A stretch of DNA of 64,000 nt, taken from the NCBI RefSeq assembly GCF_900115545.1, contig NZ_FOWV01000006.1:235235-299234 (forward strand), given 5' to 3'. The translations under genes and the position numbers were made by a program. Numbering within the stretch: the stretch's first letter is position 1; each line of letters opens with the position of its first letter. This DNA is from Ralstonia sp. NFACC01 (GTDB lineage Bacteria; Pseudomonadota; Gammaproteobacteria; Burkholderiales; Burkholderiaceae). This document shows positions 35,477 to 40,778 of this stretch, one piece after another. The notes below the pieces were generated by a model, which was given only the letters and a program-made list of their open reading frames with translations, had not been told where the DNA came from and ran no database searches.

Positions 35477-35624
35477 GCGGGTCTCCTGAGGCTAAGCTGG
35501 ATTGGAACAGGTGGGGACACTGCGGCCACCGCCCCCCGGCGACCGACGAGTTTGCGAGAATACACCCGCACCGGCCCGGCGCGGTTCTTGCATGAGTGGC
35601 GTGCACTCTGCCCCACTTTGCACC

Positions 35625-36263
35625 ATGCAAACGAAACCACCCGCCCCATCTGCCCCGCCCGCCGCCCCGCACCCGGCTGCGCCGATGCGCGTGCTGCTGG
35701 TGCGCGATCCGCTCGATGCTGAACAGATCAACCTCGAGCTGATCCGCGCCGGACTGGCCGAGGCGGGCTTTGTGGATGTGGGCCTGGCGGATGCCGACCT
35801 GACGCTGCCAGAGCGCATTGCCGAGACACAGCCCGACATGGTCATCGTCGCGTCCGAATCGGCCGCGCGGGACACCATCGAGCACGTCTGCGTGGCCACG
35901 CAGCACGCCCCCCGCCCGATCGTGCTGTTTACCGACAACGACGACGCCACGCGCATCAAGACGGCGTTTGCCGCCGGCATTACGGCCTACATCGTCGACG
36001 GCATCAAGCCCACGCGCGTCAAGGCCGTGCTGGATGTTGCCTACGCTCGCTTCGAGCATGAGAGTGCACTGCGCGCCGAGCTGGACACCGCCAAGACGCA
36101 GCTGGCCGAACGCAAAGTGCTGGAACGCGCCAAGGGCCTCCTGATGAAGCAGATGAGCCTGTCGGAAGACGACGCCTTCAAACGCCTGCGCAAGATGGCG
36201 ATGGACCGCAACATCAAGCTGGTGGAAGCTGCCCAACGCGTGATCGATGTGATGGCCAGTTGA
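35625..36263 (+). CDS. ANTAR-domain RNA-binding response regulator (NasT/NasR-like)
   Basis: A 212-residue regulator: a receiver-like domain (from MRVLLVRDPLDAEQ), a coiled-coil linker (ELDTAKTQLAERKVLERAKG) and a C-terminal three-helix ANTAR domain (LLMKQMSLSEDDAFKRLRKM). ANTAR proteins bind paired hexaloop hairpins in nascent RNA and prevent termination. Where NasT-like proteins usually carry the phosphoacceptor Asp at the end of strand 3, this one reads DMVIVASESAARDT with Ala, so classical phosphorylation is unlikely. A matching RNA target lies 330 bp downstream, before nrtA. The start is uncertain: ATG at 35685 would give the 192-residue core. Confidence 0.9.
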   Translation: MQTKPPAPSAPPAAPHPAAPMRVLLVRDPLDAEQINLELIRAGLAEAGFVDVGLADADLTLPERIAETQPDMVIVASESAARDTIEHVCVATQHAPRPIVLFTDNDDATRIKTAFAAGITAYIVDGIKPTRVKAVLDVAYARFEHESALRAELDTAKTQLAERKVLERAKGLLMKQMSLSEDDAFKRLRKMAMDRNIKLVEAAQRVIDVMAS

Positions 36264-36286
36264 GCGGTCGGGCCGCCGCCCAGTTT

Positions 36287-36323
36287 TGGTGCGCCGCACA
36301 ACTCCGGCGCTGGAAACGCACCA
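36287..36323. promoter_or_regulatory. Inverted repeat TGGTGCG / CGCACCA, candidate enhancer site
   Basis: TGGTGCG at 36287-36293 and its exact complement CGCACCA at 36317-36323, with 23 bp between. The half-sites resemble NtrC half-sites (GGTGCA/TGCACC), but the spacing does not fit one NtrC operator. It lies about 270-300 bp upstream of the predicted sigma-54 start of nrtA and 24 bp after the ANTAR gene. Confidence 0.3.
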
Positions 36324-36330
36324 GTCGCGC

Positions 36331-36561
36331 GCGGCGTTCCGAACCTCACACGCCGAGTTCCGAACCCCAACCGTCAAGCTAAAAGCCTCACGCGCGGAGC
36401 TCCGAACCCCAATCGTCGAGCTAAAAGGCTCACGCGCGGAGTTCTGAGCTCCAATTGCCGAGCAAAAAGCCTCGCACGCGGAGCTCTGAGCTCGGGGCGC
36501 CGAGCAAAAAGCTCGGCCCGTGGAGCTCCGAACGCGAAACGCCGAGCCCCATCCCTCAACG
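36331..36561. repeat. Tandem array of 42-bp imperfect repeats (21-bp sub-period) upstream of nrtA
   Basis: The motif GCGGAG(C/T)TC(C/T)GA(A/G)C recurs with starts at 36352, 36394, 36436, 36478 and 36520, exactly 42 bp apart; a half-phase copy starts at 36331 (21 bp earlier). A second motif, GAGC(T)AAAAGGCTC-like, fills the other 21-bp half. A-tracts occur at 36381, 36423, 36464 and 36506. The units are diverged by several bases each, so this is an old array rather than a recent duplication. The array ends 2 bp before the -24 element of the sigma-54 promoter. No spacers, so it is not a CRISPR. Confidence 0.85.
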
Positions 36562-36562
36562 T

Positions 36563-36578
36563 TGGCATACCCCTTGCA
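36563..36578 (+). promoter_or_regulatory. Sigma-54 (-24/-12) promoter of the nrtABC operon
   Basis: TGGCAT-N5-TTGCA: GG at 36564-36565 and GC at 36576-36577 with exactly 10 bp between, matching the sigma-54 consensus TGGCAC-N5-TTGCW at all but one position. The predicted start, about 12 nt after GC, is near 36589, right before the first ANTAR hairpin. rpoN is encoded in this same window. Confidence 0.85.
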
Positions 36579-36593
36579 AGTGTCGCTGCGAAG

Positions 36594-36635
36594 CCGGTGC
36601 CAACGTGGGTATCGGCACGGGACAACGGCGTCCCG
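36594..36635 (+). ncRNA. ANTAR target: twin hexaloop RNA hairpins in the nrtA leader
   Basis: Hairpin P1 (36594-36615) has an 8-bp stem (CCGGTGCC / GGTATCGG, two G-U pairs) and loop AACGTG. Hairpin P2 (36618-36635) has a perfect 6-bp stem (CGGGAC / GTCCCG) and loop AACGGC. Both loops are six nucleotides with A at position 1 and G at position 4, the signature of ANTAR-bound RNAs, and a 2-nt linker joins them. P2 shares its right arm with the left arm of the downstream terminator, so P2 and terminator are mutually exclusive. Confidence 0.85.
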
Positions 36636-36699
36636 ATGCACGGCAGCGCGACCCTCTTTGCGGATGGGCGGCGGCCGTGCGTCGGGACGCTTTTTCTTT
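36628..36699 (+). terminator. Regulated intrinsic terminator (attenuator) before nrtA
   Basis: Left arm 36628-36644 and right arm 36674-36690 pair over 17 bp with a single G-U, followed by TTTTTCTTT (36691-36699). It ends at the ribosome-binding site of nrtA (TTGGAG), so it would stop transcription just before the gene. Its left arm contains the right arm and two loop bases of hairpin P2, the expected geometry for ANTAR antitermination. Confidence 0.88.
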
Positions 36700-36709
36700 G
36701 GAGCCATGG

Positions 36710-37990
36710 ATGGCCGCGCCAGACAAGACCGACGCTCTCGTCAACCCGATCAACCCCAAGCGCCGCAGCATCATGAAAGCCGCGGCGACGATTGCAGGAG
36801 GCAGTGCCGTGGCATTGATCGATCCGCTGGTGCGTGCCGGGGCCTGGGCCGCCGGCTCCGATGCGCCCGAGAAGACGGAGCTGAAGGTCGGCTTCATCCC
36901 GCTCACGGACTGCGCCTCGGTGGTCATGGCGTCCACGCTGGGCATCGACAAGAAGTACGGCATCAAGATCACGCCGTCGAAAGAAGCCTCGTGGGCGGGC
37001 GTGCGCGACAAGCTGGTGTCGGGCGACCTGGATGCGGCGCACGTGCTGTACGGCCTGATCTACGGCGTGCAGCTCGGCATTGGCGGGCCCAAGAAGGACA
37101 TGGCCGTGCTGATGACGCTCAACAACAACGGCCAGGCGATCACGCTGTCGTCCAAGCTCAAGGAAGCAGGTGTCAAGGATGGCGCGTCGTTGAAAGCCGT
37201 CATGGCGAAGGACAAGCGCGAATATGTGTTCGCGCAGACCTTCCCGACCGGCACGCATGCGATGTGGCTGTACTACTGGCTGGCCGCGCACGGCATCCAC
37301 CCGCTGCAGGACGCCAAGGCGATCACCGTGCCGCCGCCGCAGATGGTGGCCAACATGCGCGTGGGCAACATGGATGGCTTCTGCGTGGGCGAGCCGTGGG
37401 GCGCACGCGCGATTGCCGACAACATCGGCTTTACCGCCGAGACAACACAGGCCATCTGGAAAGACCACCCCGAGAAGGTGCTCGGCACCACGGCGGAGTT
37501 CGTGCAGAAGTATCCGAACACGGCGCGTGCGCTCACCGCCGCGGTGCTGGAGGCAAGCAAGTTCATCGATGCGTCGGCCTCGAACCGCCGCAAGACGGCC
37601 GAGACCATCGCCGCCAAGTCCTACGTCAACACCGACATGGACATCATTCTCGACCGCATGCTGGGGCGCTACTCGAACGGCCTGGGCAAGACCTGGGACG
37701 ACCCGGACCCGATGCGCTTCTATCACGATGGCGCGGTCAACTTCCCGTACCTGTCGGACGGCATGTGGTTCCTCACGCAGCACAAGCGCTGGGGGTTGCT
37801 GAAGGCGCATCCGGATTACCTGGCCGTCGCCAAGCAGGTCAACCGCATCGACATCTTCAAGCAGGCGGCAACCGCCACCGGCACGCCGCTGCCCAAGAGC
37901 GACATGCGCACGGCCAAGTTGATCGACGGCGTGGTGTGGGATGCGAAGAACCCCGCCGCGTATGCGGACGGCTTCAAGCTGAAAGCCTGA
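36710..37990 (+). CDS. nrtA: Nitrate ABC transporter substrate-binding protein NrtA (CmpA/NrtA family)
   Basis: A 426-residue binding protein. The N-terminus carries a twin-arginine-type signal (KRRSIMKAAATIAGG, then a hydrophobic run to RAGAWAAG), followed by the CmpA/NrtA domain (LKVGFIPLTDCASVVMASTLG). The Tat-like signal argues for a periplasmic transport component rather than the cytoplasmic sensor NasS, its homologue. TTGGAG 6 nt before the ATG at 36710 fixes the start; the ATG at 36706 is in another frame. It is first in nrtABC behind a sigma-54 promoter and attenuator. Confidence 0.92.
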   Translation: MAAPDKTDALVNPINPKRRSIMKAAATIAGGSAVALIDPLVRAGAWAAGSDAPEKTELKVGFIPLTDCASVVMASTLGIDKKYGIKITPSKEASWAGVRDKLVSGDLDAAHVLYGLIYGVQLGIGGPKKDMAVLMTLNNNGQAITLSSKLKEAGVKDGASLKAVMAKDKREYVFAQTFPTGTHAMWLYYWLAAHGIHPLQDAKAITVPPPQMVANMRVGNMDGFCVGEPWGARAIADNIGFTAETTQAIWKDHPEKVLGTTAEFVQKYPNTARALTAAVLEASKFIDASASNRRKTAETIAAKSYVNTDMDIILDRMLGRYSNGLGKTWDDPDPMRFYHDGAVNFPYLSDGMWFLTQHKRWGLLKAHPDYLAVAKQVNRIDIFKQAATATGTPLPKSDMRTAKLIDGVVWDAKNPAAYADGFKLKA

Positions 37991-38043
37991 CGCCGTTGCC
38001 CTCCTGAATTCTGATTGCGGTCCTCACGTCGATGGAGCCCGAC

Positions 38044-38895
38044 ATGAACACGCTCGTCAAAACGTTGTCCGGCGTGCAGTCCGACGCCGCCCCTGAACGT
38101 CGCCGGTTCGTTGCGCGCGACTGGTTTGTCGCTGCCGTGGTGCGCGGCTTTCCGCCGGTGCTGGGCTTGGTTCTGTTTGTGCTGGCGTGGCAGGGCATTG
38201 CCACGGCCATCCCCGCATTGCCGACACCGGCGGTGACGTGGAAAGCGGCCGTTGCGCTCTTCGCCGATCCGTTCTATCGCAATGGGCCGAATGACCAGGG
38301 CGTAGGCTGGAACGTGCTCGCATCGCTGGCGCGCGTGGGTGCGGGCTTTGGCATGGCGGCGGTCATCGGCATTCCGGCGGGCTTCCTGATCGGGCGCTTT
38401 GCGTTTCTCAACGCGATGGCCTCGCCCATCATCAGCCTGCTGCGGCCGGTGTCGCCGCTGGCGTGGCTGCCGATTGGGCTGCTGCTGTTCAAGTCCGCCA
38501 ACCCGGCGGCCATCTGGGCGATCTTCATCTGCTCGATCTGGCCGATGGTGATCAACACTGCCGTGGGCGTGACGCGCGTGCCGCAGGACTACCTGAACGT
38601 GGCGCGCGTGCTGAACCTGTCCGAATGGAAGGTGTTCACGCGCGTGCTGTTTCCGGCGGTGCTGCCGTACATGCTGACGGGCGTGCGGTTGTCCATCGGC
38701 ACGGCGTGGCTGGTGATCGTAGCGGCGGAGATGCTCACCGGCGGTGTCGGCATCGGCTTCTGGCTGTGGGACGAATGGAACAACCTGAAGGTCGAGCACA
38801 TCGTCATCGCCATCTTCGTGATTGGCGTGGTGGGCTTGCTGCTCGAGCACGCGCTGCTGGCGATTGCGCGGCGCTTCTCGTACGACGCGGTTTAA
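38044..38895 (+). CDS. nrtB: Nitrate ABC transporter permease NrtB
   Basis: A 283-residue inner-membrane permease with about six membrane segments and the BPD-transport EAA-like loop ([22 protein letters not shown]). N-terminal basic residues (RRRFVARDW) precede the first segment. GGAG at 38034-38037 favours the ATG at 38044 over one four codons earlier. It follows nrtA by 53 bp. Confidence 0.93.
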
Positions 38896-38914: not shown

Positions 38915-39718
38915 ATGACAGACAAATTCCTGCGCATTGAAAACGTCGGGCAGACGTTCAAGACCAAGCGCGGCCCGTTCGTCGCCCTGCGCGACATCGA
39001 CCTGACGGTGGCGCGCGGTGAGTGCATCGCGCTCATCGGGCACTCGGGCTGCGGCAAATCAACGTTGCTCAATCTCATTGCCGGCCTCACGCGGCCGACC
39101 ACGGGTGGATTGATCCTCGCCGAGCGCGAGATTGCGGGGCCGGGGCCGGATCGGGCGGTGGTGTTTCAGAACCACTCGCTACTGCCGTGGCTCACGTGCT
39201 TTGACAACGTGTATCTCGCCGTCGAGCGTGTGTTTGGGAAGACGGAGACGAAGGGGCAGTTGCGTGAACGTACGCATGCGGCGCTGGCGCTGGTGGGACT
39301 CACGCATGCAGAGCAGAAACATCCGCACGAGATTTCTGGCGGGATGAAGCAGCGTGTCGGGATTGCGCGGGCGCTGTCCATGGAGCCTAAGGTGCTGCTG
39401 ATGGATGAGCCCTTTGGCGCCCTGGATGCACTGACGCGGGCGCATCTGCAGGATGAGCTGCTGAAGATCGTGGCCGCTACCGGCAGCACGGTGGTGATGG
39501 TCACGCACGATGTGGATGAGGCGGTGCTGCTGGCGGATCGCATCGTCATGATGACGAATGGGCCGGCTGCGACGATTGGCGAAGTGTTGACGGTGGATTT
39601 GCCGCGGCCGCGGGATCGGATGGCGTTGGCGGAGGATGCGACTTATCACGCTTGCCGGACGGCGGTGTTGGATTTTCTGTATCGGAAGCAGAGGCATCCG
39701 GTGGCGGAGGCGGCCTGA
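38915..39718 (+). CDS. nrtC: Nitrate ABC transporter ATP-binding protein (NrtC/NrtD type)
   Basis: A 267-residue ATPase with Walker [10 protein letters not shown], signature [15 protein letters not shown], Walker [15 protein letters not shown] and H-loop [10 protein letters not shown]. It lacks the NrtA-like C-terminal fusion of cyanobacterial NrtC and is closer in length to NrtD. It follows nrtB by 19 bp. No nitrate or nitrite reductase gene follows; the operon ends and a repeat begins 41 bp later. Confidence 0.94.
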
Positions 39719-39989: not shown

Positions 39990-40187
39990 TGCGTAAACCT
40001 CTAGCGTTGGTGGTAGGTGGGCGGTTCGCTTCGCTCCCTGTTTGGATGCCCTGGACACTTCATCTGTGTTGATGCTTTCTCTGGCTGGGTTGGTGGAAAA
40101 CCGTTCTGGTACAAATGCGGGGGCGAGCTTTGACCCTGCAGCTTTCCCTCGGGGTAGTTCGCTTTGCCAAGCCAGGAGAGTGATCGA

Positions 40188-40778
40188 GTGGACACGGAAG
40201 CGTTCTTCAAGAAAGTCCGGACCTATGCGGAGATCTCGGAAGAGGCTGAGCGGGCGTGGGCTTCTCTGCTGCAACCCAGGCAATACCGGAAGGACGAGTC
40301 GCTCGTGGCCGCGGGCGAAGTGCCGACACGGTTTGCGTTTGTTCTTGAGGGCCTGTTCTTCCAGCACTATGTCGGGCCCGAGGGAGACATGGTCATCAAG
40401 TATTTCTTTCCGGAGGGCCGGATTGCCGGCTCGGTCAGTGCGACGCTGCTTGGCAAACCCAGCCAATTTACGATCACCGCCATCGAAGACTGCAGCGTCC
40501 TGGAGTACGACTTCGCCGCGTTTCGGTCGTTGACGGCGCGCTTCCCGGATATCGCGGCGTTCTACATCCATTACATGGAGCGCCACTGGATCATCGAAAA
40601 GGAGCCGGTTGAAATCGCCTTCCGCCACGACAGCGCCATGAAGCGCTATCGCAATTTCATCAGCAGTGAACCCGATCTGCACAGGCGTCTGAAGCAGCAT
40701 CACATCGCCGCCTGGCTTGGTATTACTCCCGAGAGCCTGAGCCGTCTGAGAAAGGCGATTGCCCTTGGTGTTGGGTGA
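40188..40778 (+). CDS. Crp/Fnr family transcriptional regulator
   Basis: A 196-residue protein with an N-terminal cyclic-nucleotide-binding-like beta roll (RKDESLVAAGEVPTRFAFVL, then FFPEGRIAGS) and a short C-terminal helix-turn-helix (IAAWLGITPESLSRLRK). It lacks Fnr-type N-terminal cysteines, so an Fe-S oxygen sensor is unlikely. AGGAGAG at 40174-40180 points to the GTG at 40188; a TTG at 40164 would overlap that site. It lies with a VOC gene between inverted repeat copies A and B. Confidence 0.87.
   Translation: MDTEAFFKKVRTYAEISEEAERAWASLLQPRQYRKDESLVAAGEVPTRFAFVLEGLFFQHYVGPEGDMVIKYFFPEGRIAGSVSATLLGKPSQFTITAIEDCSVLEYDFAAFRSLTARFPDIAAFYIHYMERHWIIEKEPVEIAFRHDSAMKRYRNFISSEPDLHRRLKQHHIAAWLGITPESLSRLRKAIALGVG

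Follow-up and report, generated by a model that had tools for sequence, protein, structure and literature searches.

We conclude that nrtABC, the nitrate importer operon of Ralstonia sp. NFACC01, is very probably governed by a two-stage control region, in which transcription starts from a sigma-54 promoter and is then subject to antitermination by NasT within the leader. The pattern support for this mechanism shown here consists of a promoter-like site, two hairpins, a terminator, the conservation of this plan, a single ANTAR match in the genome and three leaders; NtrC as the activator, RNA binding by NasT, the start site and the inducing signal are what we infer. A sequence-only reading had proposed that nrtABC requires both an enhancer-binding activator and nitrate-dependent antitermination. 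Its sigma-54 promoter, ANTAR leader and local ANTAR regulator have good support: the plan is conserved, the genome has one ANTAR match, and published work on related systems agrees. Nitrate dependence is unsupported in the form proposed, because the search gave no separate NasS and the aspartate is missing from the NasT receiver, and the enhancer-binding activator is unproven, there being no textbook NtrC site.

The window, i.e., the whole stretch of 64,000 nucleotides that was analyzed, is part of contig 23 of a 5.37-Mb genome (G000). Pfam and NCBIfam matches give the plus-strand order nasT, leader, nrtA, nrtB, nrtC, with a gap of 446 bp between nasT and nrtA, which lie on the same strand. 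The features are as follows:

35577..35592, plus strand: candidate sigma-54 promoter of nasT, CGGCGCGGTTCTTGCA, GG-N10-GC
35625..36263, plus strand: nasT, receiver-like and ANTAR RNA-binding regulator (PF03861, 70.6 bits)
36281..36324, plus strand: block conserved directly 3' of nasT in Ralstonia (8 sequences aligned side by side)
36345..36547, plus strand: 42-bp tandem array (2 x 21), about 4.9 units
36563..36578, plus strand: sigma-54 -24/-12 promoter of nrtABC, TGGCATACCCCTTGCA, GG-N10-GC, the same element being found in relatives
36593..36616, plus strand: hairpin P1 (HP1), 9 bp, hexaloop AACGUG
36618..36635, plus strand: hairpin P2 (HP2), the antiterminator, hexaloop AACGGC
36628..36699, plus strand: intrinsic terminator, 17-bp stem and U-tract, left arm common to P2
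36710..37990, plus strand: nrtA, nitrate-binding protein with a Tat-like signal, KRRSIMK by eye (PF13379, 347.8 bits)
36796..36811, plus strand: possible internal nrtA start within the signal-peptide coding part, AGGAGG-N7-GTG
38032..38895, plus strand: nrtB, nitrate ABC transporter permease (TIGR01183, 247.3 bits, over cut-off)
38915..39718, plus strand: nrtC, nitrate ABC transporter ATPase (TIGR01184, 342.5 bits, over cut-off)

NrtA matches the NrtA structure 2g29 with an E-value of 6.9e-85, and an alternative ATG at 38044 is an equally likely start of nrtB. The gene at 40164-40778, shortly 3' of nrtC, has a cyclic-nucleotide-binding domain and by eye resembles Crp/Fnr.

The element TGGCATACCCCTTGCA at 36563-36578 contains GG-N10-GC and is the sole zero-mismatch match to TGGCAYRNNNNTTGCW within the 64 kb, where 0.06 exact matches are expected by chance and 6 of 100 shuffles contained one. 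The consensus -24/-12 site that had been read here is thus present at that position, and beyond chance. Transcription of nrtABC would start near 36589. A simple consensus scan of 36200-36760 listed no sigma-70-like promoter. Near or upstream of the nrtABC promoter there is no textbook NtrC site, GCAC-N7-GTGC, which has two matches elsewhere in the window versus 4.6 expected by chance. The conserved block at 36281-36324 is a candidate enhancer site; it contains no exact GCAC-N7-GTGC. As for nasT itself, a similar sigma-54-like site lies a few tens of bp 5' of the gene at 10 of 11 further Ralstonia/Cupriavidus loci, which were hand-picked (it is absent in L142).

The leader contains two adjacent hairpins separated by a linker of 1 nt, both with A1 and G4 in the hexaloop, as expected of an ANTAR target. 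They had been placed at 36594-36615 and 36618-36635; P1 turns out to be one bp longer. The arms of the terminator, 36628-36644 and 36674-36690, form 17 bp, so that the stem overlaps P2, and the U-tract (36691-36699) abuts the ribosome-binding site of nrtA (GGAG, 36700-36703; ATG at 36710), all as described beforehand. The leader folds with -74.2, versus a dinucleotide-shuffle mean of -55.95 (z -4.68), and 0 of 200 shuffles did as well. Its first 53 nt fold as P1 and P2 (-27.1 kcal/mol); for the complete leader, the terminator (-69.3) is favored over the state in which HP2 is enforced (-59.1) by about 10 kcal/mol. The layout is that of an attenuator. The simple consensus terminator scan of 36200-36760 listed no terminator on the plus strand, and missed that of the leader, because it considers loops of 3-8 nt and this stem encloses an imperfect top of 29 nt.

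The regulator is encoded nearby. The genome has one ANTAR-domain match, to NasT, whose gene ends at 36263, about 326 bp 5' of the predicted start (330 bp in the earlier reading). We propose that, under nitrogen limitation, sigma-54 RNA polymerase, most likely activated by NtrC, would start near 36589, and that the nascent RNA would first fold as P1 and P2. Unless NasT is active, P2 would give way to the longer terminator and transcription would stop before nrtA. When it is active, the ANTAR domains of a NasT dimer would bind A1 and G4 of both hexaloops and so keep P1 and P2 in place; the terminator could then not form, and nrtABC would be transcribed.

In an alignment of 14 Ralstonia nrt leaders, 99.5% of the hairpin cells and 92.4% of the terminator cells are paired. 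Only one hairpin pair is changed on both sides, a number reached by 202 of 500 shuffles, and no terminator pair in this alignment shows a double change; covariation within Ralstonia is little informative because the leader sequences are so alike. Across genera, the support is instead that the plan appears unchanged despite different stem sequences. The distance from the end of the -12 element to P1 is 12-17 in 24 distinct sites, which were picked by the promoter and two-hexaloop-hairpin pattern itself and in some of which the second hairpin is doubtful. A terminator-like stem (score >= 8) starting in or near P2 was found at 26 of 46 loci, including L036, where the stem does not share P2, versus 1.2% of 1560 control positions; the 46 loci were chosen with Rfam RF03032, which covers just the first 72 nt, and the controls came from the same loci. 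The remaining 20 did not pass, and L042, L122 and L126 look like false matches among the loci so selected. The full descriptor is passed by 25 of 32 Ralstonia/Cupriavidus-type nasT loci and by 2 of 15 more distant ones; the seven misses among the former are L139, where the sequence is incomplete, L145, L150, L151, L156, L161 and L162. The few misses of either test that were examined showed truncation, long inserts or likely false matches. Leaders were compared by pattern and descriptor, alignment A2 having P1 of L020, L025 and L037 out of register.

The Rfam family RF03032, narK RNA, matches the window at 36564-36634 over its full length (1-72) with 31.3 bits and an E-value of 3.9e-4; as the gathering cut-off is 43.2, the leader is not a member by the curated threshold. 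The order of conserved elements is nonetheless that of the family, whose consensus starts with GGCaCAgcucUUGC, continues with a CC-AACGGC-GG hairpin and then has ACGACAAAGACGUCGC. The first 15 positions of the model look like a sigma-54 promoter. The model ends inside P2 and has no terminator. At an E-value of 0.001, 16 of 369 genomes of the class match; the two over the cut-off (L112, L113) both have GG-N10-GC, two hairpins and a terminator. By eye, promoter, hairpins and terminator are found in L114, L115, L116, L117, L119 and L124 too, and hairpins and terminator, with no clear -24/-12 site in the stretch inspected, in L118, L120, L123, L125 and L127. Of the 299 genomes of the family, 52 match at an E-value of 0.01 and none exceeds the cut-off. 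A loose search of the genome itself (E up to 10) also gave matches in 13 of 14 control genomes, and was therefore used merely to list places. From these comparisons we conclude that narK RNA is, at its core, a composite of sigma-54 promoter and ANTAR-type leader, a reading that would give the family a mechanism. Weinberg 2017 is the likely source of the motif. The phrases narK motif and narK RNA have no occurrence in the literature searched; the ANTAR link may still have been published.

The pattern TGGC-N7-TTGC-N(10-34)-CAANGNSG, which would miss leaders without a strict TGGC-N7-TTGC, has 22 matches in the genome versus 6 for the reversed control. Three of the 22 have the complete leader architecture:

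36563-36699 of the window, plus strand: leader before nrtABC
C7:202992, minus strand: leader before narK, nirB, nirD, a reductase and nasA
C12:343775, plus strand: leader 2, before a PilJ/MCP-like gene and a second PilJ gene

The same NasT thus probably serves two further leaders in this genome. Within the family, a NasT-type leader is found at 18 of 24 PilJ loci (loci of the first PilJ gene). The pair in this genome (L109:2776-4536, on C12) encodes a soluble protein with PilJ and a degenerate MCP-like part, followed by an apparently exported protein with two PilJ stretches. Both have PF13675 matches and P-box-like motifs (INLSGRQRMLSQRI), which resemble those of NarX. In two Burkholderia-type loci (L020, L078), a gene that is cobA-like by eye lies 5' of nasT, divergent from narK; because a narK-type leader precedes cobA in L020, NasT may control its own operon there.

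How else might nrtABC be expressed? It is highly improbable that the operon is mainly transcribed by read-through from nasT, with the sigma-54-like site being accidental. The two genes are on the same strand, 446 bp apart, and the simple scan listed no plus-strand terminator between them, although it missed that of the leader as well; on the other hand, the promoter-like site exceeds chance, a similar distance between promoter and P1 is kept in leaders that have no nasT upstream (narK, PilJ), and growth of R. solanacearum on nitrate requires rpoN1 (PMC4371752). A plain attenuator or terminator outside ANTAR control is scarcely credible: a terminator this strong would by itself halt transcription, yet P1 and P2 with A1/G4 loops recur across genera. 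Against the two-stage mechanism stand the low covariation in Ralstonia, the lack of a textbook NtrC site, the RF03032 score below cut-off, the failing loci and the terminator that the scan left unlisted.

The window has the NasT-type regulator of a NasS-NasT system. Its NasT is 100% identical to the NasT of Ralstonia pickettii SSH4 and to one from a Burkholderiaceae MAG; Ralstonia and Cupriavidus supply the next relatives. The receiver motif is VIVASESAARD, in which an alanine aligns with the receiver aspartate of 1s8n. Among the 32 clade-A NasT, which are 58-100% identical to that of the window and include it, this site is Ala in 29 and Glu in 3; it is Asp, a residue not known to be essential, in all 21 other NasT compared. 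Glu is found in G016, G017 and G037, whose best NrtB matches are only 31-33% identical; in G016 and G037 the SBP has no recognizable signal peptide.

No separate cytoplasmic NasS was found in G000 with the S. medicae NasS as query, which gave NrtA at 1.2e-48 and the next match at 7.9e-4. The same query gave one strong match in each of 9 Ralstonia genomes, namely the NrtA 3' of nasT. Single-SBP genomes are not confined to clade A: 7 of 11 other genomes of the class have a single match at an E-value of 1e-10 (G319, G326, G425, G434, G460, G467, G608), and the clade-A genome G098 has a second strong NasS/NrtA match. In seven Burkholderia-type genomes (G006, G013, G030, G031, G063, G081, G130), the nasT and nasS matches are 33-91 bp apart, and these NasS have no signal peptide by eye. 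The N terminus of Ralstonia NrtA is Tat-like, KRRSIMKAAATIAGG...AGAWA, as judged by the Tat motif. The gene of the sole strong NasS/NrtA homologue in G000 occupies the nasS position behind nasT. A NasT that lacks both a separate NasS and the receiver aspartate raises a testable question, namely which protein senses nitrate.

In a tree of 51 rows, which has a midpoint root, long branches and composition warnings, the Ralstonia/Cupriavidus NrtA group with the cytoplasmic NasS of Burkholderia and of G016/G037 (33 rows, 99/93), and a separate group, away from them, holds the S. medicae NasS together with the second SBP of G389. Because the rows that branch deepest in the larger group (G608, G467/G319, G324) are NrtA-like with a Tat signal, the Burkholderia NasS may derive from NrtA rather than the reverse. 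We regard it as unlikely, but in keeping with the data, that in Ralstonia/Cupriavidus NrtA is also the partner of NasT, so that a single protein, from the lineage it shares with the Burkholderia NasS, would serve as nitrate sensor and importer subunit alike. The folded NrtA precursor awaiting Tat export would bind NasT in the cytoplasm in the absence of nitrate; alternatively, and in Ralstonia only, this would be done by a short NrtA without signal, made from the internal start. Nitrate binding to NrtA would free NasT, and the binding protein of the importer would thereby set antitermination of its own operon. The cytoplasmic short form is speculative. GGAGG precedes an in-frame GTG or ATG in nrtA in 16 of 16 Ralstonia rows, and GGAGG with an in-frame start is found in none of the Cupriavidus rows of that comparison. 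Of 250 Gly codons in nine window genes, 11 are the rare GGA, and the GGA at this place is invariant in 9 Ralstonia nrtA sequences; this conservation alone proves nothing, because invariance extends to 12 of the 32 Gly codons and 74 of the 190 four-fold codons.

A rather unlikely possibility is that NasT is blind to nitrate, having lost its sensor partner, and antiterminates whenever it is made, with control by nitrogen limitation alone through sigma-54 at nasT and nrtA. The lack of a second strong NasS/NrtA-type protein, the change of the receiver Asp to Ala and the sigma-54-like site of nasT itself, in the window and at the further loci, are all in its favor; however, the terminator and antiterminator kept in most Ralstonia/Cupriavidus-type loci would then have little purpose, and a NasS/NrtA-type gene lies behind nasT in 24 of 24 genomes of a hand-chosen set. 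That the PilJ-domain pair is a nitrate sensor feeding NasT is very unlikely. Its P-box-like motifs, its PF13675 matches and its position behind leader 2 would suit such a role, yet only half of the Ralstonia genomes (7 of 14) have the first gene although all 14 have NasT, and this gene also occurs in Burkholderia-type genomes that have NasS (G013, G031, G063). This distribution rules out the pair as a general replacement of NasS.

At the locus of Ralstonia sp. SET104 (L145/L095, genome G096), nasT and the coding part of nrtA are kept; no close NrtB is found (best 1.6e-17) and nrtBC are missing. The reading frame of the mature NrtA part is open, with dN/dS of 0.055-0.077 against eight other Ralstonia, versus 0.020-0.075 among those. 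As we read the leader, its P1 loop lacks G4 and its U-tract is disrupted, and the usual nrtA start no longer lies in frame; simple decay of the locus may explain this. As a natural experiment on a NasS role of NrtA, SET104 is ambiguous.

The regulation proposed here for nrtABC has several relatives. The nasF leader of Klebsiella oxytoca has an Ntr/sigma-54 promoter, and NasR of that organism has its own nitrate-sensing NIT domain, whereas the window regulator is a receiver-ANTAR protein. As in the window, the nasF leader has two consecutive hairpins with A1/G4 loops, the second of which overlaps the terminator (PMC7496416, PMC3369936), and the two-hairpin mechanism of ANTAR antitermination is published (PMC3369931, PMC3369936, PMC7496416). 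Paracoccus denitrificans likewise has a NasT-type ANTAR protein and a two-hairpin leader, and its nasT is under NtrBC control (PMC3795266, PMC5424462); a separate, predicted cytoplasmic NasS is encoded beside nasT there, whereas the window has a Tat-signal NrtA and a transporter behind nasT. In P. aeruginosa, PMC8092218, citing Romeo 2012, reports RpoN, NtrC and NasT for nirBD, and the title of Romeo 2012 as cited there names transcriptional antitermination within the nirBD-PA1779-cobA operon; PMC7801951 has NasT restrained by NasS. That leader is alike in that RpoN, NtrC and NasT control nitrate assimilation genes, and differs in that it governs nitrite reductase with NasS present, whereas the window leader lies in front of an ABC importer, in a genome that yielded no separate NasS. 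A sigma-54 promoter paired with an ANTAR leader is already known from Pseudomonas. In B. cenocepacia, NtrC/sigma-54 control of nasT and nitrate genes is described, with nasT, nirB, the nitrate transporter and the nitrate-binding protein down in an ntrC mutant (PMC5491218). For R. solanacearum, a table in PMC4371752 gives RSp1223, a gene of the nitrate operon, the site TGGCACACCTGTTGCA at 151. The literature searched placed no leader before nrtABC in Ralstonia, contained no such reading of the Rfam narK RNA, and described no NasT system lacking both a separate NasS and the receiver aspartate. The nrtA leader mainly extends the known pairing of promoter and antiterminator to nrtABC in Ralstonia and Cupriavidus.

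The 42-bp array between nasT and the promoter has a 7-bp sub-periodicity, and its copy number varies between Ralstonia genomes. The repeat has 7 further matches at 5 other places in G000, and TRF listed no tandem array at the Ralstonia nrt loci L024, L026 and L027. A role as enhancer is rejected for this member of a dispersed repeat family, and the array is, judging from these comparisons, no conserved part of the nitrate system. Where it would sit, those three loci have another long intergenic stretch, which is similar among all three.
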